Shown here piece by piece: positions 27,881 to 64,000 of a DNA stretch of 64,000 nt. Source of the DNA: Chitinophagaceae bacterium (lineage in GTDB: Bacteria; Bacteroidota; Bacteroidia; Chitinophagales; Chitinophagaceae); NCBI GenBank assembly GCA_016722465.1, contig JADKJC010000005.1:177145-241144 (forward strand), in the 5' to 3' direction. Below the pieces are notes generated by a model. It made no database searches. It was not told the DNA's origin and saw only the letters and a list, made by a program, of their open reading frames with translations. How positions within the stretch are numbered: position 1 is the stretch's first letter; each line of letters starts with the position of its first letter. Both the position numbers and the translations under genes were made by a program.

Positions 27881-28080
27881 GCCACTAACGGCCAGGGCTT
27901 GTTGCAGGTGTGGAATTAGAATTCCGTCCGCCCATAACCGCTGATGATTGAAATTATTTGTTGAAGTTAAAATTTAAAGCTGAGAGTTGACCGTCCAGCC
28001 CGAACTGAAATTGATTAGCGATTTACCGCTGATTGTACTTCCCTACAGCCACACTTGCGTTCAAACCCCATGTTAGTGGC
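27881..28080 (-). repeat. attC-like site S1 (array end)
   Basis: 200 bp. Left end GCCACTAAC, right end GTTAGTGGC: one of only two sites whose own two ends are exactly complementary (the other is S19). Inner stem GGGCTTG / CAAACCC and GGTGTGG / CCACACTT. It is the last site of the array on the katG side. Confidence 0.88.
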
Positions 28081-28086
28081 TGCCGT

Positions 28087-29055
28087 TTATTCTATTGTTA
28101 TCATTCTTTTCGCTTTTTTATTCCAAAGTATTATTCTTTGTTCCATACTTGATGTAATAATTCTGTTTCCTTTTTCATTCCAAGAAACTCCCCATAAATA
28201 GTCTTTTGAATCACCTTCTGAAATAAGGTTTCCCTTTGTGTCCCAAATTCTTAATGCGTCGCTTGCTGATGCAAGTCTATCTCCTTTTAGATTCCAAGTC
28301 AAATTCCTATACTCGCCCTTACTAATATCAATTGATTTTATAAGTTCGCCTTGTTCGTTCCAATATTGAAGTAATGATTTGTCTTTTTCGTCTCCGTAAT
28401 CACCTGTCACAAAAAAATCCCCTGATTTGTGCCAGGCAATACTTAACAACATAACATCTTCGGGTCTATGTTTGATTGATTTTATTAAATTGCCATTAAT
28501 GTCTAAAAAGCGTATTTTGTCAGTAACTGTTGTGAGGATATTTTTTTTGGGATGCCAAGCAATAGCAGTTATACCTTTAGTTGAATTAATTTGATTAACA
28601 AATTTCCTAATCAATTCACCTTTTGTGTTATAGATCAAGACCAGACCATCATTGTCAGCAATGGCTAAATATTCACCTGTGTAATTCCAGTCAACGCCTC
28701 TTGCTCCTTCTGTCGAAATTTCGTTTAATCTAATTTTTTCATTCGTTTCTAAATTGAGAATAAATGATTTTTCGTCAGACATTTGTGTTGTTACAGCAAC
28801 AATATTCATTGAAGGATGCCACTTTATACGTGTAATTGTGTTCTTTACTGGGAATGAATTGTATATTTCCAGATTTCCTTCTTTGTAAATTTTTAAAGTG
28901 TCAACATTACCCCCAATTGCAATATACTTTCCATTAGGACTCCAATCTGTTGTCCAAAGAATTTCCTTCGTCAATGTATTTTGTCCAAAAATCTGATTAG
29001 ATAAAACAATAATCAAAAAATTTAGGGTAGCTAATATTTTAATTCTTTTTGTCAT
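28087..29055 (-). CDS. Secreted WD40-like beta-propeller protein (322 aa), cassette C1
   Basis: Signal peptide at residues 1-24, then six to seven repeats of about 42 residues with W/S-P-x-GxxIA and LRIWDTKGN patterns (WSPNGKYIAIGG, WHPKKNILTTVTD, WNEKGNRIITSS). Probably a periplasmic or exported protein-interaction scaffold. No enzyme domain. It fills the cassette nearly end to end: the stop is 7 nt from S1 and the start 24 nt from S2. Confidence 0.8.
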   Translation of the reverse strand: MTKRIKILATLNFLIIVLSNQIFGQNTLTKEILWTTDWSPNGKYIAIGGNVDTLKIYKEGNLEIYNSFPVKNTITRIKWHPSMNIVAVTTQMSDEKSFILNLETNEKIRLNEISTEGARGVDWNYTGEYLAIADNDGLVLIYNTKGELIRKFVNQINSTKGITAIAWHPKKNILTTVTDKIRFLDINGNLIKSIKHRPEDVMLLSIAWHKSGDFFVTGDYGDEKDKSLLQYWNEQGELIKSIDISKGEYRNLTWNLKGDRLASASDALRIWDTKGNLISEGDSKDYLWGVSWNEKGNRIITSSMEQRIILWNKKAKRMITIE

Positions 29056-29078
29056 TTTGTACGCTGTCTTTTAGGATT

Positions 29079-29229
29079 ACCGCTAACGAACAGGTATTGC
29101 TGCAGGTGGGATATTTTATAATGTCCTGCCCCAGAACTAAAGCTGATTGATAAATTCTGTTGAAGTTAATGCCTAAAGCCAAATTACTAACGTCCTGCCC
29201 CGCTTGCCAGCAATACCCATGTTAGCAGC
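29079..29229 (-). repeat. attC-like site S2 (short form)
   Basis: 151 bp, lacking about 50 bp of the centre. Left ACCGCTAAC, right GTTAGCAGC. Stem GGTATTGC / GCAATACC. The arm match across C1 is weak (7 of 9). Confidence 0.88.
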
Positions 29230-29240
29230 TATTTTTCTTT

Positions 29241-30509
29241 CTACTTCAGTTTTTTAAAAATGAGTAGTCCAATTATAGTAAATATTATTGCTCCTCCAAT
29301 GATAAATATTTTCTTTTTCAACCTATTACCCTTGTCGTATTTTTCGTTCATTAACTTGTTAGCCTTTAAATAGATAAAATTATTTTCATAGTCAATAATA
29401 ACATTAAATCTTTTCAATACGTCATTCCCAATGATTAACCTGTCATAAGGTTGTTTATCATTTGGGTTTTGTAAATCTATGGGAACGTCTTTTAATTCAT
29501 AATCTCCAATAAATAGTTTAGGTACGATAACCATTGCTGTTTTTCCATTAGTTGAGTTGCTTCTATGCCCAACTACTTTCATTGTTCCATACAAACTGTT
29601 GGTTTTCGCAAATTCATTGTCTACTAATAAACAGTTGTCGAAACCATTGTCGAACATAAACCAATTTTTAGCTTTGGTGCTACCGTTGTCAATTATAACT
29701 GGAATGTATGGAACTCCATCTCTAATTTGCATTTCAACTTTTATATAATCTTTGCTAATCGTCGGAAGTGTTTTGTGTATTACAATAATATTGTTGTCGT
29801 AATTCAATTCTATTATCTTGTCTTGTAAGATGCTGTTTCCTATAATGCCTTTACAGCCCCAGTTTGTATATTTTGTGGAAAACATACCCACACTATCCCA
29901 AATTAAATTTCCTATTTGGATTTGATTGTTTTTACTTGCTTTTACAGTTTCTGTCCCTTTTAGACTGCCCATTTCTGCTGTTCCGGCCCAAATTATTTTA
30001 CAATTATCAGCCATACTTTCTTTTATAATACAAGATGTTGTACCCAAATCAAATTGAAAATTAGTTAGCTCGTTGTTGTTAATTTTGGCTTTGATGTAAG
30101 TTTTATTGTCCAACCCAAGTGAAAAAGGAATCGTATCTACAGTAGTGATGCAATCATTGCAAGCTTTACGATAGTCTATTACTTTTGCTGGAATTGTGGT
30201 TACTCTGGTAAGGCAACTGTCTTTTCCGTTTAATAGAATTATAAAATCGTGTGTTTCATTAAACTTGATGTCAAATGAAATAGTATCTAAATCTGTGTAA
30301 AAAGTTACCTTGTGAGGTTTCTTTGGATTTTCAACTTCATAAAAGTCAGGTTTTTTTTCTGGCATTATAAACCAATAGCCTTTTCTATAGTGCTCTCCAT
30401 CTAAAACACTCACATTTTTTGAGTTAGCTCTGATAATTGGTACTTGACTTTGTGCAAAAACTATTTGTGCAACAAAAAGAAGCGCAAAGAATATTTGAAT
30501 TCTTGTCAT
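29241..30509 (-). CDS. Exported retropepsin-like aspartyl-protease-fold protein with C-terminal TM (422 aa), cassette C2
   Basis: Signal peptide (residues 1-19), a beta-rich N-terminal part, then two pepsin-like lobes. The usual D-T/S-G sites read FDLGTTS and FDNGFDN, so the catalytic triads are altered. A TM helix (IFIIGGAIIFTIIGLLIF) and a basic tail close it. It is a clear paralogue of 43453-44760 in cassette C7, which keeps DSG and DTG. Possibly a non-catalytic or weakened protease. Upstream, 30510-30704 holds no gene and no site, and an IS3 element follows. Confidence 0.75.
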   Translation of the reverse strand: MTRIQIFFALLFVAQIVFAQSQVPIIRANSKNVSVLDGEHYRKGYWFIMPEKKPDFYEVENPKKPHKVTFYTDLDTISFDIKFNETHDFIILLNGKDSCLTRVTTIPAKVIDYRKACNDCITTVDTIPFSLGLDNKTYIKAKINNNELTNFQFDLGTTSCIIKESMADNCKIIWAGTAEMGSLKGTETVKASKNNQIQIGNLIWDSVGMFSTKYTNWGCKGIIGNSILQDKIIELNYDNNIIVIHKTLPTISKDYIKVEMQIRDGVPYIPVIIDNGSTKAKNWFMFDNGFDNCLLVDNEFAKTNSLYGTMKVVGHRSNSTNGKTAMVIVPKLFIGDYELKDVPIDLQNPNDKQPYDRLIIGNDVLKRFNVIIDYENNFIYLKANKLMNEKYDKGNRLKKKIFIIGGAIIFTIIGLLIFKKLK

Positions 30510-30724
30510 AGAATATTGTTTGTCAAAATTGAGTCAATTTTTAATAATGTAGTTTGCCCGTATGCAGTTACTGTAAGTAAAAAAACAGGCAAAGTAAATT
30601 TTGTTTTAGATATAACATTCGTTTTTTTGCTTAGTTTTCATTTAACTCTTTCATATATCAACGATGAAAAAGTCCTAATCCCAATCCTTATACACTCTTC
30701 ATCAACCATAAAATTGGGAGTTAA

Positions 30725-31603
30725 CTACCCCCATTTATCGATCAACTCTAAAGTAGAATTTTCAGGCATTGTTTGATACTTTATAATTACTTCATCCGGT
30801 GTCTTTCCGTTAAGAGAACTATGTGGCCTGAAGCAATTGTATTCCTTTCTCCAGGGTTCAATTTTATCAACGGCATCATCCTGTGATAAGAACCATGTTG
30901 TATTCAAACACTCATCCCTAAAGCTGCCGCTAAAAGATTCTATGAACGGCTTGTCTGTTTGTTTTCCTGGTCTTGAGAAATCTAAAGTTACATGATTTGT
31001 TTGTGCCCATCGGTCAAAATCCTTGCTGGTAAATTAACTGCCGTTATCTACTTGTATTCGTTTGGGTACAATACCGTATTGCATTTTTAATGATTCCATT
31101 ACTTCTGCTACGTTGATTCCTTTGAATGTGCTTTTCACATTTATTGCATAACAATAACGACTAAAATTATCGACTATAGTTAACGCCCTTAGTTTCCTGC
31201 CGTTATACAGCTGATCATGTACAAAATCCATGGACCAGCATTCGTTTAAATTTGAGACCTCCGGACGTTCCAGGCGATAAGCCGCAGCTTTTGAGCGGTG
31301 CGGTCTTTTGTTTCTCAGGTTGAGTCCTTCCTCACGATAGATGCGACGTACACGCTTGTGATTGGCCGGCCATCCCTCCTGCCGCAGAAGCGTGTAAATA
31401 CGCTCGGATCCATACCGTACCCTTGAAACTACAATCCCTTTTATCCGCTCTCTTAAAGGCTCTTCATCCCGTCTAGTCGACTGGTATCTTAGTGCCGCCC
31501 GTCCAATCATTATCACCATGCAGGAACGCCTGGCCGATACCTTGTAATTTTCAATTAAGTTTAACGCAAGGGATCTAAGCAGCCGAAGCTTCAGGCATTT
31601 TTT
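30725..31603 (-). pseudogene. IS3-family OrfB (DDE integrase), nonsense mutant
   Basis: Reached by a -1 shift at the A9 run near 31597-31605. HTH_21-like region (RYGSERIYTLLRQEGW), then the rve core: WSMDFVHD (first D), IVDNFSRY, QVDNGS (second D) and the downstream FIESFSGSFRDE region with the catalytic E. The codon after DNGS is TAA (31034-31036) where DNGSEF is usual. The frame then continues to 30725, so a single substitution killed the transposase. Confidence 0.88.
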
Positions 31604-31863
31604 TTTAACACATCCTGCAGCATTTGTTTGTCAAGACTAAGATCAGCAACGATTTGCTTCAGCCGGTTGTTTTCTTCTTCAAGTTGCTTTAGTTTTCGCA
31701 ATTCACTTACACCCAGAGTTCCATATTTTTTCTTCCAGTTGTAAAATGTTGCATCACTGATACCCAGCTTACGGCAGACTTCTTCTACCTTAACGCCGTT
31801 GTCTGCCTGGCGCAACGCAAATACAATTTGTGCTTCTGTGAATTTTGTCTTTTTCATACGCAA
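31591..31863 (-). CDS. IS3-family OrfA (helix-turn-helix), 90 aa
   Basis: FTEAQIVFALRQADNGVKVEEV followed by CRKLGISDATFYNWKKKYG is the HTH of IS407-type OrfA, followed by a leucine-zipper region (LKQLEEENNRLKQIVADL). It ends at the A9 slippery run for production of OrfAB. Confidence 0.92.
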   Translation of the reverse strand: MRMKKTKFTEAQIVFALRQADNGVKVEEVCRKLGISDATFYNWKKKYGTLGVSELRKLKQLEEENNRLKQIVADLSLDKQMLQDVLKKNA

Positions 31864-31979
31864 TTTTCATTTTTTAAGTTATGAATAATTGCCCAATTTT
31901 TCTATTTTAGAATGGATCGGTTTTTTGGGAGGAGATCATTTACTTTCGAAAACTTGCTTCAACTAAGAGCAAAGCCGAA

Positions 31980-32471
31980 TTAATTGTCCGGCTCACCTGG
32001 ATAAGTTCCTTCGTTTAGTGTCAAAGGCATCGTTGTCTGATGATTGTTATAATTTGTTATTATACTTAATGGCAAGGGCTGATTTGTTGAAACTTTAAAC
32101 TTTGCTATCCATTGTAATCCTATTTGCTTGCAATATATTTTCTTGGCAATGCCTTTGTCAGAAAAGCCAATATAGATTACGGCATGCCTTAGTCTAAGTC
32201 TCCCTTTATTATTTCCAATGCCATCCTATTGTTGCAATTGAACTCGAATAATATACTTGTGAACGCTGTCATGTGTTGTACTCACTCTTTCGACACTATA
32301 AGACCAATAACATTTTGCATTAGGGAATGTTTTGACTGATTCTGGTACAGGAACTTCTTGAGCAATTACATGGTTAGAAACAAACAATAACCCGACTAAG
32401 AACATAAGAAGTACTTTCAGTTGTTTTCTTCTTCGGCTTTGGATTACTCTCACTATATTCTGTCTAACCAT
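31980..32471 (-). pseudogene. Small exported protein with internal stop, C2
   Basis: Starts MVRQNIVRVIQSRRRKQ, with an internal hydrophobic stretch (LLMFLVGLLFVSNHVIAQ) that looks like a signal sequence. A TAG at 32226-32228 interrupts it, but the frame continues for 81 codons (IGNNKGRLRLRHAVIYIGF ... YPGEPDN) to TAA at 31980-31982. Family unknown. One nonsense change separates it from an intact 163-aa gene. Confidence 0.6.
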
Positions 32472-32498
32472 AAAATTTGTAGAGTGTCATTGCAAATT

Positions 32499-32700
32499 GC
32501 CACCAACGAACAGGGCTTAGCGAAGTACGGGTATTAGTATTCCGTCTGCCCATAACCGCTGCCGATTGAAAATATTTTGTTGAAGTTAAGAATAAAATGT
32601 TCAGCGTTGCTTGTCATGCCCGAACCGAAATTGAAAGATGATTTACTGCTAATTGCACTTCCGTCCAGCCACACTTGCGTTCAACCCCACTGTTATAGGC
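32499..32700 (-). repeat. attC-like site S3
   Basis: 202 bp. Left GCCACCAAC, right GTTATAGGC. The left end does not match the right end of S2, unlike every other pair, which fits a lost site inside C2. Confidence 0.9.
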
Positions 32701-32787
32701 TGGCGTTCTTGCTTGTCATGAGTTACAATAACTTTTACAAATCCGCTTTTGTCAGTATGGAATACTATTTTGTGCTATTGAATAGTT

Positions 32788-34329
32788 TTATTTTTTAAAA
32801 TAAGATTCGTTAAAAAGAGCATTCAACTGATTTTGATTAATAAGGATTTTCATGGTTTTATTATTCAAATCAGCTATCGTCAGATTTCCCTCAGCGTCTA
32901 AGTATAATATTCTATTTGAAATCAAATTATATTTGAATTGGGTTGTGCTTATTCCTTCTACTTTTTGTTTGTGAGTGCCGTCTATTTTCATCGTCATTAT
33001 AATTCCTGGTGCTTGAATATACATAATGTTCTTTTCGTTCAGCCAAAATGGAGCGTAGTTATGTGTTGTGGTGTCGTTGGTAAGATTGGTGTGATAACTT
33101 CCATTTTTATCTGTTAAATATATCTGGTCTCTCTTATCACCCTTTTCCGAAGTATAAACAATCTTATCGCCCCTTGCATTCCAAACAGGGGTGTAGCATT
33201 TGAAGGTACTGTTTTTAGTAATTTGGTTTATCCTGCTTGTTTGAATATTGTAAGTACAAATTTCAACCTTTGCATTCGCCCCATTGCCTATTTGAATATT
33301 ATAAACAAGATTTCTCCCATCAGAAGACCAATTAACCGCATATTTTTTTAGCGTATCAATTACTAATAGTTTGCCTTCTTTTTCATTAAAGTTGTATAGA
33401 TAAATTTGGTCCTTACCATTGACCTGCTTGATATAAGCTACTGAATTTCCGTCAGGAGACACGGACAATCCTCCACCATCAATTGCCAAAAACTCAACTG
33501 TTTCTGACGGAATAATAAATTTGAATTTTTTTGGAATTGGAGGTGTATTTTCAGTCTTATCAATTTTAAGAATATTCAGTAGTATTGCTTTGCCATCAGG
33601 CATCCAAGTAAAAGCAGAAATTCGTTTTTCAAATAATGTATCTTCTTTTTGAGTAACGATATAATCAAGTGTCTCTGGCTTCCAGTTGTACATCATTACT
33701 TTAGCAACATCATTTGCGACATCTGAATTAAACATCTTCGACAATAGATATAGTGAGCCATCAATTCCAGCGGAAACACCCTCAGTAGTAATGATTCTGC
33801 CGTTATCAACAAATCTTTTGCCTTTTACTATATTAATTTTAGGATAGTTTTTAATTAAATTATCAAGAGCACGATAGTGGCTAGTTGCTGTCATTCCATC
33901 CAGAACCCCTGTTTTGGCAAGTAGGTTTAGTCCATTACATACCGACAAAACAAATTCTGCTTTCTCATTTACTTTTGATATCCACGCTACTAAATTTTCG
34001 TTGTTTACAAGTGCTAAATTATTACCACCTGGTATTATTAATATGTCTGGCATTGGGCAATCATCAATTATATATTGTGTGGTAATATTTAGAAAACTTT
34101 GACTGATTATTTTATTTGAATTTATTCCAACAGTATAAACATTAAAAGCGTCTTTACCATTAAAGTTGGCTTGTTGAAATACTTCTCCAGGTCCTGCAAA
34201 ATCTAAAAGTTCGACACCATCATATAACAGGATAGCAACATCTAAAGGTTTATAAGTACTATCAGCCTTAAATTGACCATATGAATTCATTGAAGTTGTA
34301 AGGAATAAGAAAAACAATATATTTTTCAT
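32788..34329 (-). CDS. Secreted DJ-1/PfpI-domain protein fused to a TolB-like propeller (513 aa), cassette C3
   Basis: Signal peptide (1-18). Residues 28-215 are a DJ-1/PfpI domain: the conserved Glu in LLDFAGPGEVFQ and nucleophile elbow VLSVCNGLNLLAKTG with its Cys, then GVSAGIDGSLYL. These resemble the amidase half of GlxA/AraC-type regulators, but the HTH is missing and is replaced by PD40/TolB propeller repeats (SVSPDGNSVAYI, WSSDGRNLVY, WNARGDKIVYTSEKG). An exported fusion is unusual. Last gene of the five-gene cassette C3. Confidence 0.78.
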   Translation of the reverse strand: MKNILFFLFLTTSMNSYGQFKADSTYKPLDVAILLYDGVELLDFAGPGEVFQQANFNGKDAFNVYTVGINSNKIISQSFLNITTQYIIDDCPMPDILIIPGGNNLALVNNENLVAWISKVNEKAEFVLSVCNGLNLLAKTGVLDGMTATSHYRALDNLIKNYPKINIVKGKRFVDNGRIITTEGVSAGIDGSLYLLSKMFNSDVANDVAKVMMYNWKPETLDYIVTQKEDTLFEKRISAFTWMPDGKAILLNILKIDKTENTPPIPKKFKFIIPSETVEFLAIDGGGLSVSPDGNSVAYIKQVNGKDQIYLYNFNEKEGKLLVIDTLKKYAVNWSSDGRNLVYNIQIGNGANAKVEICTYNIQTSRINQITKNSTFKCYTPVWNARGDKIVYTSEKGDKRDQIYLTDKNGSYHTNLTNDTTTHNYAPFWLNEKNIMYIQAPGIIMTMKIDGTHKQKVEGISTTQFKYNLISNRILYLDAEGNLTIADLNNKTMKILINQNQLNALFNESYFKK

Positions 34330-34404
34330 GATTTTATTAAAGACTATTTTTTTAATATTGATGCAAAGTTTTGATGACTTAAAAATGGTTGGTTTTTTAT
34401 TTAT

Positions 34405-35685
34405 TTACTTTTTTACAATTTTCCCTGCCTTTAAAACCGTATTGATATTCAAAGTATTTCTAATGTCAGTAACTGGATTCTCATTCAGAATAATCAAGTC
34501 AGCCATTTTATTTTCTTCAACTGTTCCGTATAATTTACTAATTCCTAAAAATAAAGTTGGGTTTATGGTTGCCATTTTTAGTATTTCAAATGGTGGAATT
34601 CCTAAATCTTGAAGCAAAGCCATTTCTTCGTGTAAGCTATAACCAGGATAAATAAATTGCATTCCAGCAAAATCAGTCCCCAATAGTAATGGTATTCCAT
34701 TATCATAGAATCTCTTGACAAGTTTTTTTTGATTTTTATATCTTTCTTGAGTTTGTAAAAGCTCCTCTTCAGTTAATATTTTGTTTTGTCTTTTTTTCTT
34801 TACTTGTTCCCATTCAGTTTTTAAATCATTGTCTAGTTCATTATAAAGTGAGTGTGCATAAAACACATTTTTAGCAAATTCAGCCTTTCGTTTATAAATT
34901 ATTAATGTAGGACAAATCCATGTATTATTTGATTTTGCAAGTCCAATAAATGCCGAAAGTCTGATTGTATCATTTTGCAAATCTTCCAATCGGTTTAAAT
35001 GCTCAAAACTTTTCTGACCCAATATTGAAGCTTCTTCTGGTGTTACATATTCAGAAACATGACCCGCAAAAGGAATCTTTTTTGCTTTTGAATAATTAGC
35101 AATACTATCTAAAACTGTCTTAGGCAGTAATGAGTAAACTTTTAAAAAATCAATTTTTTGAAAGTAAAGGCTATCTAAAACTTTTCTTACATTATTTTGT
35201 GTCAGAGGAACGCTAAAATCAAGGTGCACAGGCTTCTCTCCATCAAGAATAGGACCTGCACCAAATAATGTTGGACCGGAATGTGGATTACCTTTAACTT
35301 GATTTTTGAATTTAGTGAGAATCTTTATATCTCCTCCCATATCCCTAACCCCAGTAATACCGTAACTAAATAGAGTTGGATATAAATTATTCAAATTCTC
35401 TTTCCAACAAATATGTATATGCATATCCCAAAATCCTGACAAGATAAATTTCCCTGTTCCATCAATAATTGTATCTGAAACTATTTTTTTATATTTTTTA
35501 CTTCTCTCAATTTTCGCAATTCTTTCATCTTTTATATGGATTGTCTGTTTAGGAATTATTTTCAAATTCTGAACATCAATTACAGAAATGTTTTTAATAA
35601 CAATATCGTAAGTTGTTGACTGTGATAAACACGGTAGCCAGTTGAATAGGATTAGCGATAAAACAAATGATTTAGTCATATTCAT
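34405..35685 (-). CDS. Secreted amidohydrolase (imidazolonepropionase-like, 426 aa), cassette C3
   Basis: Signal peptide (1-21). Metal-dependent hydrolase with the HxH of WDMHIHICW, Lys in FLKVYS, His in FAGHVSEY and FEHLNRL, and Asp in LLGTDFAG, then a C-terminal MADLIILNENPVTDI strand typical of the amidohydrolase composite domain. Probably cleaves a cyclic amide or peptide in the periplasm. Lies 13 nt downstream of the propeller gene 35699. Confidence 0.85.
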   Translation of the reverse strand: MNMTKSFVLSLILFNWLPCLSQSTTYDIVIKNISVIDVQNLKIIPKQTIHIKDERIAKIERSKKYKKIVSDTIIDGTGKFILSGFWDMHIHICWKENLNNLYPTLFSYGITGVRDMGGDIKILTKFKNQVKGNPHSGPTLFGAGPILDGEKPVHLDFSVPLTQNNVRKVLDSLYFQKIDFLKVYSLLPKTVLDSIANYSKAKKIPFAGHVSEYVTPEEASILGQKSFEHLNRLEDLQNDTIRLSAFIGLAKSNNTWICPTLIIYKRKAEFAKNVFYAHSLYNELDNDLKTEWEQVKKKRQNKILTEEELLQTQERYKNQKKLVKRFYDNGIPLLLGTDFAGMQFIYPGYSLHEEMALLQDLGIPPFEILKMATINPTLFLGISKLYGTVEENKMADLIILNENPVTDIRNTLNINTVLKAGKIVKK

Positions 35686-35698
35686 AAAAGCCGTGTTA

Positions 35699-36601
35699 TT
35701 AAATTAATGAAATCCTTACAATTAGTTCTCCACTAAGTGATACTACTTTGATGCAATGCTCTTTTTGGTCAATGTAAGCTATCATTTTGCCGTTTGCAGA
35801 AATTCGGGCATAAAATGATTCTGCTTGAAGAAATAGCTTTTTATGATTTCCTTTGGGTGAATTAGAAAAGATGTGATTTATTTCATTTCTTCTTTGGGTA
35901 TAGATGATTTTATTTTTAGAAATCCAGCTTGGATAGAAATTCTGCAAACTATCATTTGATATATTTACTTTATTTGAACCGTCTGCATTCATTACATATA
36001 ATTGGTCTTTCAATTTAGATACTCCTAGATAATACACAATTTTCTTACCGTTTGGCGACCATTGAGGACTATTATAACTTGAATCAGAAGTTGAAAATGT
36101 TAATCTTTTCAATCCTGTAGAATCAATATTTACAACATATATATCAGCTTTTCCATTTCGAGTTGAATTAAAAAGGATTTTTTTACCATTAGGAGAAAAT
36201 GAGGCAATGTAATCAACTTTGGGATGTGAGGTGATTCTATTAATTTTCTCACCATTAATATCATAAATATAAATGTCACGATTGCCATTATGAATTTTAC
36301 CCGTAGCAATATTTTTTCCAGAAGGAGAAACTGCCACATAGTATGCAGAATCAATGAATTTAGTGGTTATTTTATTCTTAAAATCATACTTATAAATGCT
36401 CCAATTTTCAGGCTTGAAATCTGAATAGTCAGGGTTGTGCCATAAACCCGAAAAATAAATTGTCTGTCCATCTGGAGACCAACACAAATCCTGTATGCCT
36501 GCCATAAGAGTGTCTCTACGTGAAGAGGCTAGAGCATTTTCGCTTTGTATAAAAAAGAAAAGCACAATAGACCAAATAGTTGAGATGAAAATAGATTTCA
36601 T
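35699..36601 (-). CDS. Secreted TolB/PD40-type beta-propeller (300 aa), cassette C3
   Basis: Signal peptide (about 1-25). PD40 repeats: LCWSPDGQTIYFSG, VSPSGKNIATG, FSPNGKKILFNSTRNGKAD, WSPNGKKIVYYLG. Similar to the propeller half of 32788, so the two may have arisen by duplication within this cassette. A binding role is likely and no enzyme motif is present. Confidence 0.78.
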   Translation of the reverse strand: MKSIFISTIWSIVLFFFIQSENALASSRRDTLMAGIQDLCWSPDGQTIYFSGLWHNPDYSDFKPENWSIYKYDFKNKITTKFIDSAYYVAVSPSGKNIATGKIHNGNRDIYIYDINGEKINRITSHPKVDYIASFSPNGKKILFNSTRNGKADIYVVNIDSTGLKRLTFSTSDSSYNSPQWSPNGKKIVYYLGVSKLKDQLYVMNADGSNKVNISNDSLQNFYPSWISKNKIIYTQRRNEINHIFSNSPKGNHKKLFLQAESFYARISANGKMIAYIDQKEHCIKVVSLSGELIVRISLI

Positions 36602-36658
36602 TACTGTTTTTTTAGAACATTTATAATTGCAGTTTTTTACAGTAACAAATAAAATCCA

Positions 36659-37066: not shown

Positions 37067-37091
37067 TTTATAAGAATTTTAAAATTTATTC

Positions 37092-37099: not shown

Positions 37100-37131
37100 A
37101 GAGGACTCTTTTTTTACATGATAGTAAAAAA

Positions 37132-39141: not shown

Positions 39142-39142
39142 T

Positions 39143-54104: not shown

Positions 54105-54132
54105 AGGGCTTTATTGTAGCGCCTAATAAGTT

Positions 54133-55007: not shown

Positions 55008-55036
55008 GAATTAGATTGAAATGTTGAATTAGCCTT

Positions 55037-55236: not shown

Positions 55237-55249
55237 AGTTAATTGTCCT

Positions 55250-55813
55250 TTAGTTGTGTTTTGTAGTGTCAATTGTTCCATCGCTGTTCCAGTAGGACCA
55301 ATCGGTTTGTTTTCCATCATTCAAATATGTCCCCCTGGCTTTAATTTGGCCGTTTTCATAAAACTCTGTCCATTCTCCTTCTTTTTTCCCATTGGCTCTA
55401 ATGCCAGTGAATGATGGTTTACCGTCTTTATGAAACCAAGTTGACAAACCATTAAATTCTCCATCCTTCGATTCTCCTTTAAAAAGAGTCTGCTGTCCTT
55501 CGTAAAATTCATATGTAAACCCACTTCTTTTGCCATCAATATGTGGCAGTAAAGCCGAGACATTTAAATTATCATGAAAATAAACTTGCGTTCCGTTTTT
55601 AACTCCATTTTCGTAGGGAACAATCTCCATGATTCTCCCCAAACTGTCATACTCAATTTCATAGTATGTGTTCTTGTTGTCAATGGTCTTGTAAATTGTG
55701 GTCTTTGGTTGTCCATTGCTAAAAGACTCTTGAACAGTTACTCTGTTGTTCTTGCTTGAACAACTGAAAAGTATAACTGTCACTGTCGTTAGTATTGAGA
55801 TTGTCTTCCTCAT
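55250..55813 (-). CDS. MORN_2 (YwqK-like) repeat lipoprotein (187 aa), cassette C15
   Basis: Lipobox LFSC at residues 15-18. Repeats: FSNGQPKTTIYK, YENGVKNGTQVYF, SKDGEFNGLSTWFHKDGKP, FYENGQIKARGTYLNDGK, all MORN_2. Membrane-anchored. The family is sometimes called an antitoxin component, but the function is unclear. The ATG lies only 5 nt from the edge of site S16. Confidence 0.85.
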   Translation of the reverse strand: MRKTISILTTVTVILFSCSSKNNRVTVQESFSNGQPKTTIYKTIDNKNTYYEIEYDSLGRIMEIVPYENGVKNGTQVYFHDNLNVSALLPHIDGKRSGFTYEFYEGQQTLFKGESKDGEFNGLSTWFHKDGKPSFTGIRANGKKEGEWTEFYENGQIKARGTYLNDGKQTDWSYWNSDGTIDTTKHN

Positions 55814-55817
55814 AATT

Positions 55818-56017
55818 GCTGGTAACGAACAGGTATTGCCGATGGTGGGGGATTAGTATTCCGTCCGCCGACAACCGCTGCTGATTGAAAATGTTTTGAT
55901 GAAGTTAAGATTAAATGATCAGTGTTGTTTGTCCAGCCCGAACTGAAGATTGGCTTTTTACTGCTGCTGATTGTACTTCCGTCCAGCCCCACTATTGGCA
56001 ATACCCATGTTGTAGGC
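55818..56017 (-). repeat. attC-like site S16
   Basis: 200 bp. Left GCTGGTAAC complements S15 right (14 nt paired). Right GTTGTAGGC. Stem GGTATTGCC / GGCAATACC. Confidence 0.92.
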
Positions 56018-56106
56018 AGTTTGCTTTCGACAGTATCAACAAGAGAACCAATTCCGTCATTTTTTTGAATAATTACGTATTTGACAGCAAGGAGAAGCGA
56101 AAAGAA

Positions 56107-56550
56107 TTATTCTTTTTTCCTGATATCGCCAAAGTATGTCTTTTTTACAACGCACGATAATGGATCATATGGAATTTCTTCAGCTCTCCAATTAATTGTT
56201 CCCTTAGAGGTAACAACAACATAATCATTTAGATGTAATCTCAATAGTGTATCCGTTAAAGTATCATTAGTATTATACTCGGAAATATTATCACACAATT
56301 GTAGTACCCTTATGGTATCTCCTTTGTTAGTTAGTATGATAGCATTAGACGCAGTAGAAATTCCACCACAAGCAGTTAATGGCTGCATATAGAATAAAAT
56401 TTTGCCTTCCACTTTACTTTTTAACGATAAATATTTCCAGCCTTTTTGACAATTAAGAAGCCTATTTGCTTCTTTGAAAAGTTCCTCGTCTGTTTGAGAG
56501 ACGGCTATTTTTGAAGAAAGTATAATCGCACACAATAAAACACTTTTCAT
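56107..56550 (-). CDS. Small secreted protein of unknown function (147 aa), cassette C16
   Basis: Signal peptide (1-18). The mature part has LLNCQKGWKYLSLKSKVEGK, LTACGGISTASNAIIL and a C-terminal PYDPLSCVVKKTYFG; it contains several Cys residues that could form disulfides. No family recognised. Only gene in its cassette. Confidence 0.6.
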   Translation of the reverse strand: MKSVLLCAIILSSKIAVSQTDEELFKEANRLLNCQKGWKYLSLKSKVEGKILFYMQPLTACGGISTASNAIILTNKGDTIRVLQLCDNISEYNTNDTLTDTLLRLHLNDYVVVTSKGTINWRAEEIPYDPLSCVVKKTYFGDIRKKE

Positions 56551-56619
56551 AATTTAATTTGTCAATATAGCTTAAAACAAAAAATGATTATTTGAAACTC
56601 AGAAGGCTAATGTCAAATT

Positions 56620-56818
56620 GCCTACAACGAGCAGGTATTGCTGCAGGTGGGATATTTTATAACGTCCAGCCCGGAACCGCTGCCCAATTGAAAAACTAAA
56701 GTTGAAGTTAACAACAAAAGCCAAATAGATATTCGTCTGCCGGAACTGAAGTACAGCGATGCACACAGCCGATGTTTAAACGTCCAGCCCCACTTGCAGC
56801 AATACTTATGTTAGCTGA
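56620..56818 (-). repeat. attC-like site S17
   Basis: 199 bp. Left GCCTACAAC complements S16 right over 15 nt. Right GTTAGCTGA. Subtype of S2 and S8. Confidence 0.92.
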
Positions 56819-56832
56819 AGTGCCGGTGTACT

Positions 56833-56985
56833 CTATCTTTTCCCTTTATGTGCCGTTTTCTTGTGAGAAGCTTTTTTAGTAGAAGCTTTTTTAGTAGAAG
56901 TTTTTTTAGTAGAACCTTTTTTTACTCGTGTACCTCCGCCTCTTGTGGTTCCATTAGGTTTAGGCGAACTCTTTTTTGTTGCCAT
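56833..56985 (-). CDS. Lys/Ser/Thr-rich repeat peptide (50 aa), cassette C17
   Basis: ATG at 56983-56985, TAG at 56833-56835. Begins MATKKSSPKPNGTTRGGG; the C-terminal half repeats STKKAS/STKKTS and ends HKGKR. The DNA beneath has a 15-bp tandem repeat (about 56876-56930). Highly basic, so nucleic-acid binding is possible. The Met start has an AT-rich leader. A small gene, easily missed. Confidence 0.6.
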   Translation of the reverse strand: MATKKSSPKPNGTTRGGGTRVKKGSTKKTSTKKASTKKASHKKTAHKGKR

Positions 56986-57012
56986 AATTTTTAATTAATA
57001 ATTAATAAAAAT

Positions 57013-57798
57013 TTATTTTGGATATGAATACTTGAAAGTGTCTTGATAAATATCTGTATAAGTATAATCAATAGTTATTTTATTAAATGCCTCGATAGCG
57101 TTATTTAAGTTGCGCAAATTTGAATTAGCAATGGTATATACATCATATTCATCTTTTGACGAGACAGTTAGGTGATTCAAATCATACCATTCTGGAACAT
57201 ATTTTTTCCAAAAAATCAGTTTGTCTTTTTCGATGAGTTCAGTAAGACTTGACCAATTATTAACCGAGATTCCATTATAAGTTATTTTTTGGTCTATTAT
57301 AAGGGCAGGCCCAATTCCCTTGTTTTGAAGTGTAATACTAATTTTTGGATATGTTTCACTTATATTTTTTTCTATATTAAGAAAAGGGCGAACTGACAAT
57401 TTATTATGATTTATAGTATTTTCTAACTGAGTTTTATTTAATTCGGAAGTTTTCTTGAATTGGTAAATTCCAAAGCCTAATGAAGATAGTGATACTATAA
57501 ATGCAAAAATTGAGATTCGGATTGGTATTAAAAGTCTGAATTTTTCTCTTTTTTGTTTATTAAGGAAATCCTTATAAGTTCCACTTCCTACTACTTCATA
57601 ACCTTTGTCTGTTAAAGTCCTAATAAAGGTATTTCCTTCACCTAATACCTATTTACAATAACCTTTCCGCTCAATGAACTCCATTACATCATCGTCCATT
57701 TGCCGCAGCTCAGTAATTGTTTTACCTTCTCGATTATCACACCTAATGCTATCTAAAGCAATTATGATTTTCTCTTGTCTATCTTTTGCTAGATTCAT
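57013..57798 (-). pseudogene. Membrane protein with N-terminal helical domain, internal stop, cassette C17
   Basis: From ATG 57796-57798: MNLAKDRQEKIIIALDSIRC, then RQMDDDVMEFIERKGYC, then a TAG at 57649-57651, after which the frame continues VLGEGNTFIRTLTDKGYEVVG. One TM helix follows (LLIPIRISIFAFIVSLSSLG) and an extracytoplasmic domain, SVRPFLNIEKNISETYPKIS. About 262 aa if intact. Family unknown. The N-terminal part looks winged-helix-like. A caller without the 5' part starts at 57399. Confidence 0.65.
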
Positions 57799-57819
57799 GA
57801 TGGTTATAGTTTTGGCATT

Positions 57820-58023
57820 TCAGCTAACGGACAGGTATTGCCGATGGTGGGGAATTTTATATTCGTCCGACCGGAACTGCTGCCTGGCTTTTTTGATAAA
57901 GTTAAATATTAAGAACTAAAGCTGGGCTTTGTTCGTCAAGCCCTGAACTGAAGCACAGCATAATTACCGCTGCTGATTGCTCCAATGTCCAGCCCCACTA
58001 TTGGCAATACCAATGTTGTACGT
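57820..58023 (-). repeat. attC-like site S18
   Basis: 204 bp. Left TCAGCTAAC complements S17 right over 15 nt. Right GTTGTACGT. Confidence 0.92.
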
Positions 58024-59458: not shown

Positions 59459-59658
59459 ACGTACAACGAACAGGGCTTGCTAAGGGCTGGAATTCATCGC
59501 TCGTCCGCCCGGAACCGCTGCTGACTAAAGATATAAAAGTACAGGTTAACAAACAAAAGCCCAGCGATGTTTGTCCAGCCCAGATGAAGCACAACAGCGA
59601 TAAAATGACCATTGCTCCAATGTCCAGCCAGCCTTGCAGCAAACCCAATGTTGTACGT
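59459..59658 (-). repeat. attC-like site S19
   Basis: 200 bp. Left ACGTACAAC complements S18 right. Right GTTGTACGT. Because C18 and C19 carry the same 9-nt end, this site is also self-complementary at its outer ends. Confidence 0.92.
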
Positions 59659-59692
59659 TCGCCTTTTATCAGTCACCTTTTTTAATGATAGA

Positions 59693-60124
59693 TTAATTTT
59701 CCCTTTTTCGTCCGAGCCCCCATAATCTTTGGTTTGTAATTTCGTCTATAAACCACAAGTTTTTTGTTGTCGGGTCAATAACACATTTGCTTGACAAGTA
59801 ATATTTTATTTCTTTTGGATTAATGTCAAGCCAATTAAGGTAAAGTGTGTCATTACTCTGAGAATAGCGCCCAAAATTTTCTCCTTGTTTAATAGTTACA
59901 ATAAGCCATAATTTCTGATAGAATTTAAAATAGCCATTCTCTTTAAGAACTAAATAACCGTCCTGCAGTTCATTGGCCATGCCTGTGTAGGTCGCAATTA
60001 CTTTTGACTTTCTAAACTCTCTTTTATCGAAAGTTTTATTCACAGCTGCACAAGAACAGAGTGTCGAAGCGAAAAGAAAATATTTAATTAACTGCTTTTT
60101 TTTCACAAGTTTATTTCGGAGCAA
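59693..60124 (-). CDS. Small lipoprotein of unknown function (143 aa), cassette C19
   Basis: Charged N-terminus, hydrophobic stretch and lipobox STLCSC near residues 20-25. The mature part has YTGMANELQDGYLVLKENGYFKFYQKLW and closes WFIDEITNQRLWGLG, a beta-rich lipocalin-like pattern. Family not recognised. Only gene of its cassette. Confidence 0.65.
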   Translation of the reverse strand: MLRNKLVKKKQLIKYFLFASTLCSCAAVNKTFDKREFRKSKVIATYTGMANELQDGYLVLKENGYFKFYQKLWLIVTIKQGENFGRYSQSNDTLYLNWLDINPKEIKYYLSSKCVIDPTTKNLWFIDEITNQRLWGLGRKREN

Positions 60125-60142
60125 AGATGCTTTTTAAAGGTG

Positions 60143-60346
60143 ACGTACAACGAACCAGTATTGCCGCAGATGGGATATTTGATGCTGTGTCTGCCCGCAA
60201 CCGCAGCCGAATAATTAATTAAAAGTACAAGTTAACAATCAACTGCCAAGTAGAATTCCGTCAAGCCGGGATGCAGTACAATAGCGATTTGCAGCTGATT
60301 GACCTTCCGTCAAGCCCCATTTGCCGGCAATACTTTTGTTGGTGGC
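60143..60346 (-). repeat. attC-like site S20
   Basis: 204 bp. Left ACGTACAAC complements S19 right. Right GTTGGTGGC. Subtype of S9 and S13. Confidence 0.92.
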
Positions 60347-60361
60347 AGTGCTTTAGCATGA

Positions 60362-61057
60362 TTACTTGTTGATAAAGGAATCCAATCTTTTCATGATACT
60401 CCTTGCGGCATTTAGGCTTTTTTTGTCTGATTCAACTGTTTCTAAGTCTTTATTGGCAACTCTTTTCAAGTATAGTATTGAAGGTATAGTATCAAGCATT
60501 TGTACTTTAGAAACGTAAATGGTGGTGTCCTTTTTTTCTGAGTATTTAAATCTATAGATTGTCTTCAAATAAATCAATGAGTCTGTATCAACATTACATC
60601 CCTTTAACTCGATTTCATTTTCATCTCCAAACTGTTTAATGAAGTATTTGTATGCAATTTGCAAATGATTGCCGTTAACTGTTGGTGGTTTAAAATTCAG
60701 GAAATCTCTATTTTTCTCTACATTACCTTTTTCGGGAGTAAAGAGATGAGGGTAAATTGCGAAAAAGGTTATAAGTAATATTCCACATATACATGAAACT
60801 GACAAGCCTATATTATAACAAAGATTTTTTGTTGCCTCTTTTTCTCTCCATAGAAATATGCATAGGCCTAAGAAAAGGCCAATCAAAACAAAGAATAGAG
60901 AGTAAACCCATATCCATGGTTGCAGAATTACTGCAAAAAAAGTTTTCCTGCCGAATAAAGTGATAAGACCAATTACAAGTATTGTGGATAGAAGAAACTT
61001 TACGCTTTTGCTGAGTAGAAACATGTTTTTATTTTGATGTTCATTGAGCATTACCAA
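60362..61057 (-). CDS. Membrane protein of unknown function (231 aa), cassette C20
   Basis: Three TM helices in residues 15-110 (FLLSTILVIGLITLFG, WIWVYSLFFVLIGLFLGLCIF, IGLSVSCICGILLITFFA), then an extracytoplasmic domain with PTVNGNHLQIAYKYF and DKKSLNAARSIMKRLDSF. The start could be the internal Met of MFLLSKS. Family unknown. Confidence 0.6.
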   Translation of the reverse strand: MVMLNEHQNKNMFLLSKSVKFLLSTILVIGLITLFGRKTFFAVILQPWIWVYSLFFVLIGLFLGLCIFLWREKEATKNLCYNIGLSVSCICGILLITFFAIYPHLFTPEKGNVEKNRDFLNFKPPTVNGNHLQIAYKYFIKQFGDENEIELKGCNVDTDSLIYLKTIYRFKYSEKKDTTIYVSKVQMLDTIPSILYLKRVANKDLETVESDKKSLNAARSIMKRLDSFINK

Positions 61058-61089
61058 AGCTTAATTTATAATTAAAAGTTCATTGTTAT

Positions 61090-61205
61090 TGATGAAGCCA
61101 AATTTATAATGTACAGCTGATTACCTAAGTCAAATAGCGAAACAAAAGTTGATGCTGCAGTTTGTCCAGCCAGTTATTGCCAAAACGCATATGGGGGGTA
61201 GTGCT
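61090..61205 (-). repeat. Degraded attC-like site between the two genes of C20
   Basis: Right-half remnant: TTTGTCCAGCCA, TTATTGCCAAAACGCAT, then ATGGGGGGTAGTGC where GTTGGTGGCAGTGC would stand, i.e. the GTT core is lost. The left half is absent. The tag AGTGC is the same as at S20 right. It explains why two genes share one interval. Confidence 0.55.
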
Positions 61206-61250
61206 GTCCAGTTTTACTTTCATTGTTTTCTGTTAAATTAATTATGGTCT

Positions 61251-61700
61251 TTACACTTGGCCGGTCTTCCTTGTCTTATTTTTTAAAAGTATTGTCTGAA
61301 TTGTTATGATGCCGATAATAATGAAACTAACTAATTTAAGTAAATAATAACCTACTGTCATTGTAGAGCTAATAAACATATAGTGTCCGTCATTAAGATT
61401 CTCACAAGGTTTATTAATTGCAAAAACTAATAGTAAAATTGATGTCAATGCAATAAAGAAATGTATCAAAAAAAGTCTTGTTTGTGTCTTGACTTTAAAA
61501 AATGTTTGTACAAGAATAATGATAATTGGAAACAAAAATAAGTATGAAGCATCAGCAAGTAATTTTCGTTTCGTTATTGCCATTGATGCATCGTGCATCC
61601 AATAAGCTTCACATTCTTGAATTGATGTCAAAGTATAAATTGTCAAAAAGCAAACTACCGTTAAATAGAAAAGTATTAATTGTCTATTGCTTATTTTCAT
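61251..61700 (-). CDS. Small membrane protein (149 aa), cassette C20
   Basis: Four TM helices (LILFYLTVVCFLTIYTL, YLFLFPIIIILVQTFF, FLIHFFIALTSILLLVF, YYLLKLVSFIIIGIITI). Function unknown. Closest to S21. Separated from 60362 by the degraded site, so it may once have been its own cassette. Confidence 0.6.
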   Translation of the reverse strand: MKISNRQLILFYLTVVCFLTIYTLTSIQECEAYWMHDASMAITKRKLLADASYLFLFPIIIILVQTFFKVKTQTRLFLIHFFIALTSILLLVFAINKPCENLNDGHYMFISSTMTVGYYLLKLVSFIIIGIITIQTILLKNKTRKTGQV

Positions 61701-61736
61701 TTGTCTTTGTCATTTTCAGGGTGGTCATTTTGCATT

Positions 61737-61936
61737 GCCACCAACGACCGAGTATTGGCGAAGGCTGGGAAATAGAATTCCGTCTGCCCACAACCGCTGC
61801 CGATTGAAAATATTTTGTTGAAGTTAAGAATAAAAAGTTCAGCGTTGCTTGTCCTGCCCGAACTGAAGCAGAGCAATGAAAAACCGTCGATTGATCTTCC
61901 GTCTGCCCAGCTTTTGCCAATACTTTTGTTAGCGGT
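61737..61936 (-). repeat. attC-like site S21
   Basis: 200 bp. Left GCCACCAAC complements S20 right over 14 nt. Right GTTAGCGGT. The TAA stop of the C21 reading frame lies inside its right end. Confidence 0.92.
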
Positions 61937-63170
61937 AGTTTTTGTCGGCCTGTTTAAATAAGTCTGTAAAATACTGTTCAGCTTCAATTGATGTAAAAGG
62001 TAGCTTGTCCTTCCTAAACTTTTCATTCATTATTTTAACCAATTCATTTGCCTTGTCGTAATTTGATTGGGCTATTAAATTATAAATATTGTTGTAGTAG
62101 CACCAACGAAAACCATTTAACACTATTATCGCATCCCTTGATTTTATTATGTCGTCCTTTTGTACTTTGTCAATATTATACTGTTTTATGTTGTTGTGGA
62201 TTGTAAAAACATTAGAATTCCAATCTATCACTTTTGGTATAACTCGATTTACTAATCCTTCGTCCACCAAATAAGGCGAAAGAAACAAATTGTAGGTTGA
62301 GTCAGAATTGTTGCTAAAATAGATTGTTCGGGAAAAAAGATTTTGCTGAAAATGTCAAATAAATCCTGTCGCCTTTAAGTATGTAATTGTCCATATAAGT
62401 TGGTCGTAATTCCCAACTAAAGGTTTGCGTTGTGTCAATAGAATTGATAACCGTAACCGCTTGAGATTGCCATTGTTTATACTCAATGGTGTGAATGACC
62501 GCATCTGAAAACTCATTTTTAAATTCCGTTCCGCCTTTAAATATTTTGGATACCAAATTGTGTTTATCAGATTTGCATCAACTACTGTAATGTCAGTCCG
62601 ATAATTTTCAACTGTCTGTAAGTACCAAATTGGAATTGTAATATTGTCTCCGTAAGTAACAAAATTGCATTTTTGTCGCAACTGTTTAAAAGCTGTCTAT
62701 TGAATTCTAAAATTGGTTCTATGAAAACCACCTCTTTTTGCCTTCTGAAAAAGCCCACTTTGCTGAATCAGCAAGTTTTCGGTTTAAATATGCTTCCAGC
62801 CAAACTTCCCAAATCGAAGTTAATTTTGCGTATGGGTCTAAAATGAAAAGTTCTCCTTGTAAACTGGTTCCAATCTATTAACTTCTTCAAATTGTTCGTT
62901 GGCTTTAATGGTTGGCTTTTTAAGTTGATTACATTCCTTTGCCACATCAGCATTTAGTCTGTCAATAGCGTAACCTAAAAATTATCTGAACTCGTTTTTG
63001 GATTTTGCTTTACCTGATTGCTTAAAATTCTAAAAGCTTTGGAATGATCTGCTGTGTCCTTTTGCTTGCAACTTAAATTCATATTTTCCATTATAACTGT
63101 CTCAACAGTTGTTTGTCGCCAGCAAAAACATAGTGTCGAAATAAAAAGTGATACGATTGAAATGAAGGGG
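61929..63170 (-). pseudogene. DUF2723-like membrane-protein fragment, several frameshifts, cassette C21
   Basis: Pieces in different frames read in order: TLCFCWRQTTVETVIMENMN (near 63130), then [52 protein letters not shown] and [15 protein letters not shown], then FLSPYLVDEGLVNRVIPKVI to the stop at 61929. The GDN..PIWYLQ.VENYRTD motif is that of the C-terminal domain of DUF2723 (O-mannosyltransferase-like) proteins. The membrane part of that family is missing, so this is a fragment as well as frameshifted. Confidence 0.65.
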
Positions 63171-63179
63171 CTCAAAATT

Positions 63180-63380
63180 ACCGCTAACGGCCAAGGTATT
63201 TGCGAAGGCTGGGTAATAGAATTCCGTCCGCCCACAACCAATGCCGATTGAAATTATTTTGTTGAAGATAACAATTACAGATGATTGTTGCTGTGTCTGC
63301 CCGAACCGAAATTGATTAAAGATTTACTGCCGATTGTACTTCCGTCTGCCCAGCTTTTGCAAGATACCCGTGTTAGCTGA
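63180..63380 (-). repeat. attC-like site S22
   Basis: 201 bp. Left ACCGCTAAC complements S21 right over 15 nt. Right GTTAGCTGA. Confidence 0.92.
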
Positions 63381-63389
63381 TGTTTTGCT

Positions 63390-63842
63390 CTAACTTTCTA
63401 TTACTCTTCTTACAAAATCGGAGAATTCATTCTTATGAAAATCACTAGAAAATGATTCGGAGTGTTTTAAAAAATAGTGAGTGCAAATCTGATCTAAATT
63501 CCAATTGTTTTTAGAATGAAAATTTTGTATTTCAACTATAATTTCATCCATTTGATCATCATGCTGCTTGGCTCGATTTAAAGCTTCAGTGTCACCACGA
63601 AAAAGCTTTCTAAGTTCCCTTGCTGTGAGCTCTATCGAAAGATAACTAGTATCAACCGGTACTTTCTTAATTCGATCTTTTGGAACCTTACCTGTTCCGC
63701 TGCAAAACGCACATGATCCTGGATTCCATTTCAGATACCGTTTTAGTCGTTTAATGTCAGCCCAATCAACAAAACCTTTTCCAAGGCATCTTGGGCATTC
63801 CACTTTTTCAGTTTTTTTAAATAAATTATTAAAAAATGACAT
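63390..63842 (-). CDS. Zinc-ribbon protein with DnaJ-like CxxCxGxG motifs (150 aa), cassette C22
   Basis: CPRCLGKGFVDW (residues 16-27) and CAFCSGTGKVP (44-54) form one DnaJ-type zinc site. The rest is helical (LSIELTARELRKLFRGD, EIIVEIQNFHSKNNW) with no J-domain. Cytoplasmic. Role unknown; protein or nucleic-acid binding is possible. Confidence 0.7.
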   Translation of the reverse strand: MSFFNNLFKKTEKVECPRCLGKGFVDWADIKRLKRYLKWNPGSCAFCSGTGKVPKDRIKKVPVDTSYLSIELTARELRKLFRGDTEALNRAKQHDDQMDEIIVEIQNFHSKNNWNLDQICTHYFLKHSESFSSDFHKNEFSDFVRRVIES

Positions 63843-63885
63843 TGTAATTAGTGTTCTTTTTTAAAGGGTGGTCGCCAATAAAATA

Positions 63886-64000
63886 TCAGCTAACGGACAG
63901 GGCTTGCCGAAGGTGTGGAATTAGAATTCCGTCCGACCACAACCGCCGTTGATTAAAATTATTTTGTTGAAATTAGGAACTAAAGTCGAAATTTGTTTGT
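63886..64000 (-). repeat. attC-like site S23, cut by the window edge
   Basis: Left TCAGCTAAC complements S22 right over 15 nt, then GGACAGGGCTTGCCGAAGG. The right half is outside the window, so the array continues. Confidence 0.9.

Follow-up and report, generated by a model that had tools for sequence, protein, structure and literature searches.

The stretch of DNA analysed here, referred to as the window, comprises 64,000 nt of the genome of a Chitinophagaceae bacterium (GCA_016722465.1; contig JADKJC010000005.1, 177,145–241,144), and positions are given as window coordinates. Its right-hand part, from 27887 to 64000, is an integron-like cassette array in which 23 related sites bound 22 segments. 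Twenty-two sites are complete and measure 138–194 nt from a leading AAC to a closing GTT (median 188, n = 22); the last is truncated by the window end. An earlier description made from the sequence alone, hereafter the original prediction, had counted 23 related sites correctly, with its figure of ~200 bp being slightly generous. The sites are as follows:

27887..28074, + strand, site 1, distal array end
29085..29223, + strand, site 2, short form of 139 nt
32505..32694, + strand, site 3
38058..38195, + strand, site 4, short form of 138 nt
39149..39335, + strand, site 5
40266..40438, + strand, site 6
41278..41466, + strand, site 7
44836..45024, + strand, site 8
45709..45900, + strand, site 9
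48127..48314, + strand, site 10
49002..49195, + strand, site 11
49977..50166, + strand, site 12
50850..51040, + strand, site 13
53914..54098, + strand, site 14
55043..55230, + strand, site 15
55824..56011, + strand, site 16
56626..56812, + strand, site 17
57826..58017, + strand, site 18
59465..59652, + strand, site 19
60149..60340, + strand, site 20
61743..61930, + strand, site 21
63186..63374, + strand, site 22
63892..64000, + strand, site 23, truncated by window end

The AAC start and GTTR end that had been described for every site are present in 22/22 complete sites; this count is partly by construction, as the search patterns contained these letters, and in an independent alignment of the sites both triplets, AAC and GTT, are invariant. 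Relative to the attC consensus (RYYYAAC / GTTRRRY), AAC and GTTR are kept and the other positions are variable. A model of the 22 sites recovers all 22, as expected, together with the 23rd site and a partial copy at 47926–48019. This partial copy matches the site interior without the AAC and GTT ends and lies within cassette body 9; it may reflect the decay of a site or the fusion of cassettes. A pattern for the site interior finds 12 matches in the window at up to three mismatches, against a mean of 0 in 100 shuffles. An Rfam search of the window at gathering scores gave no match, and no tRNA was found in it. The GC content of the array is 0.29–0.39, against 0.45 over the 2 kb to the left of site 1 and 0.36–0.45 in the remaining left part; a peroxidase gene (24987–27227) lies to the left of the array.

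The bases just outside AAC and GTT differ between sites; these R-box bases are variable yet complementary between the two ends of a cassette. Over the 22 segments, the right flank of one site pairs with the left flank of the next at a mean of 7.1/9 bases, compared with 3.9/9 across one site and 3.4/9 for other combinations, and 0/100,000 permutations reach 7.1. The same holds in other loci, where the ends of 168 segments pair at 5.86/8 against 3.29 within a site (0/20,000 permutations); this test kept overlapping loci, and an overlap-free repeat on 158 segments gave a mean of 5.85. Taken by position, pairing is seen at 70%–93% for positions 1–7, at 2% for the eighth, and at 61%–73% for the next four, an AT-rich stretch. 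In integrons, according to passages of PMC2727003, R pairing may exceed 7 nt and reach 9–11.

Capture of a segment as a circle, via an attC-type site, predicts the end-to-end pairing that is observed: the ends would match because the segment was once a circle with one site, the two sides of which pair. Dispersed palindromic repeats between genes (REP- or IS200/IS605-like), perhaps moved by a Y1 transposase, offer no such explanation, and we regard them as a barely credible account of the array. The repeats are numerous, and a Y1_Tnp (IS200-type) transposase fragment does lie at 27485–27745, ~140 bp to the left of site 1; however, the ends of segments between dispersed repeats would not pair with each other, and neither one-way genes nor the identical AAC-to-AAC segments found in other species (see below) would be expected. 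An identity as REP/RAYT or IS200-type repeats was rejected, as the repeats are not independent of the segments and the ends form matched pairs; a repeat family of the Y1 transposase was likewise dropped after the segment-end pairing result. In site 1 (27879–28083), the site's own flanks pair without gaps (gccact/agtggc), making it one of 4/22 sites with at least 6/9 own-flank pairs.

Within the AAC/GTT ends and their seven paired bases, each site has a short unpaired spacer and a stem of ~19 bp, in agreement with the paired stem of the original prediction. In a structure-blind alignment, 91.9% of stem cells are standard pairs, compared with 75.2% when shuffled and 34%–51% when slid. Changes on both sides occur in 12/18 stem pairs, a number reached by 22/500 shuffles, and 0/500 reach the other four measures; the stem structure tested for covariation came from the same alignment. 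Across 279 unique sites (L061, L069, L070, L073, and L083 were excluded from this comparison and that of strands), the predicted energy of a site's own arms is −14.8 kcal/mol, against −8.7 kcal/mol for swapped arms. By predicted energy, the gene-opposite strand is the more stable in 238/279 unique sites and the other strand in 39; within the window, the gene-opposite strand is preferred in 18/22 sites. In the other loci, 149/151 cassette ORFs (open reading frames) lie on the strand complementary to that of the site. Folding predicts a bulged 3′-arm base for sites 2, 8, 9, and 20, and most sites are without it.

The segments between the sites carry genes that are functionally unrelated by Pfam, several of their ORFs having no Pfam match, and that lie on one strand, both as had been proposed: in 19/19 cassettes with an ATG-started ORF of at least 80 aa, the longest such ORF is a minus-strand one, and 3/22 cassettes have none of this length. 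The cassette bodies contain the following:

28075..29084, − strand, body 1: WD40-repeat protein (28087–29055; Pfam)
29224..32504, − strand, body 2: aspartyl-protease-like protein (29241–30509; Pfam)
31034–31519, − strand, also in body 2: transposase fragment, HTH_21 and rve (Pfam)
32695..38057, − strand, body 3, 5.4 kb: DJ-1/PfpI and PD40 protein, amidohydrolase, PD40 protein, DUF1761, AraC-type regulator (Pfam)
38196..39148, − strand, body 4: 154-aa ORF without Pfam match; DUF1801 protein
39336..40265, − strand, body 5: short ORFs
40439..41277, − strand, body 6: 224-aa ORF without Pfam match
41467..44835, − strand, body 7: beta-lactamase-family serine hydrolase, DUF4440, aspartyl protease (Pfam)
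45025..45708, − strand, body 8: cupin protein (Pfam)
45901..48126, − strand, body 9: carboxypeptidase-regulatory-like-domain protein (Pfam)
48315..49001, − strand, body 10: TPM-domain protein (Pfam); 90-aa ORF
49196..49976, − strand, body 11: 241-aa ORF without Pfam match
50167..50849, − strand, body 12: HigB-like toxin (50486–50767) and HTH partner (50175–50441) (Pfam)
51041..53913, − strand, body 13: 313-aa and 602-aa ORFs without Pfam match
54099..55042, − strand, body 14: Mrr_cat restriction-endonuclease-like protein (54133–54789; Pfam)
55231..55823, − strand, body 15: MORN-repeat protein (Pfam)
56012..56625, − strand, body 16: 147-aa ORF without Pfam match
56813..57825, − strand, body 17: TTG-started 128-aa ORF (57013–57399) without Pfam match; no ATG ORF of 80 aa
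58018..59464, − strand, body 18: beta-lactamase-family serine hydrolase (Pfam)
59653..60148, − strand, body 19: 143-aa ORF (TTG) without Pfam match
60341..61742, − strand, body 20: 231-aa and 149-aa ORFs without Pfam match
61931..63185, − strand, body 21: short ORFs
63375..63891, − strand, body 22: 150-aa ORF (63390–63842)

Among the array loci gathered from relatives, no cassette shared with the window was found. Such loci are widespread in the phylum. The interior pattern occurs in at least 120 stretches, mostly labelled Chitinophagaceae, Hymenobacter, or other Bacteroidota; among the matches listed, 119/120 loci have hits to the site model (340 hits in total), and none of these 119 carries sites on both strands. 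Oddly labelled matches are L044 (Achromobacter; no model site), L032, L033, L062, L078, and L098, and the metagenome-derived ones may be misbinned. Viral contigs gave no exact match to the site pattern. Run on related genomes, as had been suggested at the outset, covariance model R1 matches 11/11 and 6/6 genomes picked for holding such loci and, at E 1e-6, 31/395 genomes of a phylum sample, the latter with search filters that lose weak matches. In a Niabella genome (G007 C2:211879–251412), an extended array of ~130-nt sites, shorter but alike in type, accompanies a frameshifted recombinase transcribed the other way.

Evidence for cassette exchange comes from the comparison of species other than that of the window. 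The cassettes present vary among relatives, with changes at the points the original prediction had named, between G and TT; the unchanging segment order that would have told against that prediction is not what these species show. Sediminibacterium sp. C3 and S. salmoneum share an identical 1110-bp block that runs from one AAC to the next and has different surroundings in the two. Two metagenome-assembled genomes share 1396 identical bp, again from AAC to next AAC and in different surroundings, and a third common block of ~1.57 kb, 92% alike, has the same kind of ends. The two Sediminibacterium species have an attI, a recombinase, and several kb of chromosome in common (88%–94%); the likeness breaks off no more than three bases from the attI AAC, and the arrays beyond differ. 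These end points suggest exchange of whole cassettes. A further S. salmoneum/C3 stretch (99.5%, 1521 bp) extends from the end of the S. salmoneum record to 32 bases inside the next site; many of the remaining matches in the Sediminibacterium comparison are repeated introns.

An integron has its integrase gene upstream of its first cassette, a position that corresponds here to the right of the window end. The array extends to the right of 64000, and by comparison with relatives, an attI and a recombinase are expected there. In relatives whose array start can be seen, a tyrosine recombinase and an attI-like site were usually found on the predicted side, with frames of 330, 340, and 392 aa and a shortened one of 251 aa (L134, L133, L135, and L136), plus broken copies. 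In six further site-bearing genomes, 6/6 recombinase hits of at least 423 bits (from 5/6 genomes) are found on the predicted side of sites, 0.7–4.5 kb away and transcribed in their direction. With all scores included, a site is found within ~1.5 kb of 12/30 recombinase loci, two of which are weak matches; the 12/30 includes both near-identical G003 copies (L141 and L159), and a single gene, in pieces, accounts for both L155 and L165.

On the 3′ side of the recombinase, a cassette end is joined to a conserved AT-rich sequence with the attI-like consensus AACTcgTtTATATacGC (24/41 loci; capitals denote agreement in at least half of the 24). These attI-like sites, of the type AACTYGTTTATA, are situated 70–328 bp from the recombinase 3′ end, apart from 1/24 (L201), which is doubtful. 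An exact 7/7 end pair of the first cassette is present on this 3′ side in 17/41 loci (in L141, at an AAC other than the attI-like one) and on the 5′ side in 1/41, against 0.6 expected from shuffling. The end-pair and attI tests covered 41 of 54 recombinase loci, with L154–L159, L162–L165, and L167–L169 excluded for low score or as pieces or repeats. Many attI-like recombinase loci from the phylum sample have no R1 match, and thus, such systems seem wider than this site family. At E 1e-80, the recombinase family is found in 95/395 phylum-sample genomes and is enriched with the sites (16/31 site-bearing genomes versus 79/364 that have no site match; Fisher p 0.0005); the phylum-sample searches for sites and recombinases scored only the first 5–6 candidates per genome. 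Second recombinases of ~250 bits lie between sites inside two arrays, as if they were cassettes (G406 C4:2908251–2909111 and G411 C230:15226–16095). Many family recombinases also have an extra N-terminal stretch (WS.T.KGW..P-like; alignment columns ~30–90), which is absent, for example, in the enzyme encoded by C3 at G406 C4:2912606–2913493.

The recombinases are related to, and distinct from, the canonical integron integrase IntI. Model TIGR02249 (cut-off 265) aligns to them in two pieces, ~2–180 and 239–315, with scores of 157–184 bits for four proteins, of which one is a shortened frame, and of 81 bits for a fragment. Aligned with canonical IntI of the same phylum, they lack ~40 residues, among them the WxWQxVFP stretch (gaps of 27 and 14 in most rows), and the motif of the IntI-specific insertion (I2) occurs in 0/29 family proteins versus 10/10 canonical IntI. 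Both groups end in an SPLD-type motif in the alignment. In a tree with 29 family members (L129, L208, and L210 were skipped for want of a usable frame), canonical IntI form one clade (100/100) with the family outside, and both stand apart from XerC/XerD (100/100); the tree is midpoint-rooted and carries a long-branch warning, and a sister relation of the family and IntI is not claimed. The identification of the recombinase as canonical IntI was dropped in view of the split, sub-cut-off TIGR02249 match and the lack of canonical IntI in the array genomes. The best curated model for 5/5 proteins scanned is XerA (NF040815; maximum 207 bits, cut-off 220), and a fold search placed XerA structures (4a8e, 5hxy) first and the integron integrase 2a3v next, a ranking that is only a pointer given the medium quality of the fold model (pLDDT 76, pTM 0.55).

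In an ordinary integron, the cassettes would be moved by a canonical I2-bearing IntI encoded elsewhere in the genome or past the window end, and the neighbouring I2-less recombinases would be bystanders. This would fit the attC-like look of the sites, and canonical IntI over the cut-off are common, being present in 105/395 phylum-sample genomes and in 5/31 that bear sites. This count of 105/395 exceeds what passages of the complete-genome survey PMC9024848 suggest. Against such bystanders, however, no canonical IntI over the TIGR02249 cut-off is found in the 17 chosen array genomes (11 + 6), that of Sediminibacterium sp. C3 among them. Site-bearing genomes are enriched for the I2-less family and not for canonical IntI (5/31 site-bearing versus 100/364 other genomes; Fisher p 0.21); the site model gave no match at E up to 1 in the 1.5 kb on either side of 10 canonical IntI genes; and it is the I2-less gene that sits at the attI-like site. 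We therefore consider an ordinary integron improbable.

A second alternative accepts the same cassette system but has it act on double-stranded sites in an Xer-like manner, the hairpin serving extrusion, transcription termination, or a similar role. The region with which IntI docks extra-helical bases and prevents a second strand exchange is missing from the enzyme, and the closeness of the enzyme to XerA in both searches points the same way. Yet R-box variation with kept complementarity, together with stem covariation, argues that pairing within one strand is maintained, and the same strand is favoured in 238/277 sites that differ; action on double-stranded sites is thus judged unlikely, if less so than an ordinary integron. 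We infer the single-strand step from the pairing and the strand bias, which as sequence features suggest it.

In our assessment, the 36-kb segment very probably consists of cassettes between 23 attC-like sites, likely recombined as folded single strands between AA and C (equivalent to G and TT) by an IntI-related, I2-less tyrosine recombinase predicted beyond the window. A free circular cassette would expose its site as a hairpin of the gene-opposite strand with its R box fully paired, and the recombinase would join the circle, between AA and C, to either attI or a different site. The cassette would enter with its site at the gene 3′ end, and cassettes would accumulate behind the recombinase in a single orientation. 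One-way cassettes are found, as are attI and exchange in relatives; an IntI-type integrase is not. We read the system as an integron in layout and behaviour, and as a variant without I2 rather than a canonical member. The original prediction, which named either a chromosomal integron or a separate system built on the same logic, is supported, and its second wording fits best, because the recombinase is IntI-related but lacks the defining insertion.

Several observations weigh against this interpretation. No recombinase or attI is visible in the window, the array running on past 64000. According to PMC7790495, cassette capture requires the I2 region, which confers single-strand recombination and is found in no other protein; the published necessity for capture is at odds with an I2-less enzyme. 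The 5/31 site-bearing genomes with a canonical IntI are ones in which it could act in trans. At E 1e-80, 15/31 site-bearing genomes have no family member and 79/364 genomes with no site match have one, so that no tight pairing of site and enzyme holds at these thresholds. In G001, a complete chromosome with an array, neither a family recombinase nor canonical IntI was found, and the site-adjacent recombinase genes of G002, G004, G007, G009, and G010 are broken or shortened. The exact-pair test was also positive in 2/18 Xer or canonical IntI loci. Finally, the whole-site folding energy of one site is unremarkable against shuffles (z −1.40 and 0.03); it gives no support by itself, and reliance is therefore placed on covariation and the strand comparison.

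The system resembles sedentary chromosomal integrons of the Vibrio type in its long one-way array, AAC/GTT hairpin sites, strand bias, R boxes paired within a cassette, attI by the recombinase, toxin-antitoxin cassette, and exchange at GTT. Unlike in those integrons, the recombinase has no I2 region, falls outside the IntI clade, and is mostly transcribed toward the array; the R-box bases after GTTR vary; and the sites are longer, with the window median of 188 nt exceeding the 57–142 nt given in passages of PMC2727003. The recombinases also resemble XerA-type simple tyrosine recombinases, as the model and fold searches indicate. Xer proteins resolve chromosome dimers at dif; the family here differs from them in its SPLD-type C-terminal motif and its location at attI-like sites.

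Integrons are on record for Bacteroidota in parts of PMC8618304 and PMC9024848, and one complete integron, in Salinibacter ruber, is named for Bacteroidetes in passages of the IntegronFinder 2.0 survey. The original prediction's remark that no long array of this kind was well described in the group therefore has to be limited, the more so as canonical IntI occurs in 105/395 phylum-sample genomes, although beside the 10 canonical IntI genes checked no site of the present family was found. Searches of open PubMed Central papers brought up no description of the present system, with preprints and most subscription papers outside that scope. We somewhat favour the view that Bacteroidota hold a second integron class, comprising an I2-less recombinase lineage with its own attIs that captures cassettes through folded single-stranded sites without the supposedly indispensable helix; it would represent either a pre-I2 stage of integron evolution or an independent invention of hairpin recombination. 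If a cassette system works without I2, the origin of integrons becomes testable, because enzymes and sites are available in sequenced Sediminibacterium isolates. A large pool of mobile genes may also go uncounted by IntI-based searches, since the family occurs in about a quarter of the phylum sample and, among its best 120 relatives, those with readable names are called XerD or tyrosine-type recombinase.

The sites are also targets of group II introns, which are inserted within the site AAC, directly after AA, in 7/7 copies that can be read at both ends, so that a further element targets this point of the site. The introns are 1.9-kb repeats with a reverse-transcriptase-like ORF, found in G406 C4 (L214–L219) and G002 (L124–L126); nine copies were recognised by their end sequences, and Rfam D1D4 matches number five in the five stretches searched. 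They recall the group IIC-attC introns, retroelements that insert at the site GTT (TTGT/T in passages of PMC7923331), but differ from those described there in lying on the strand that carries the cassette genes.

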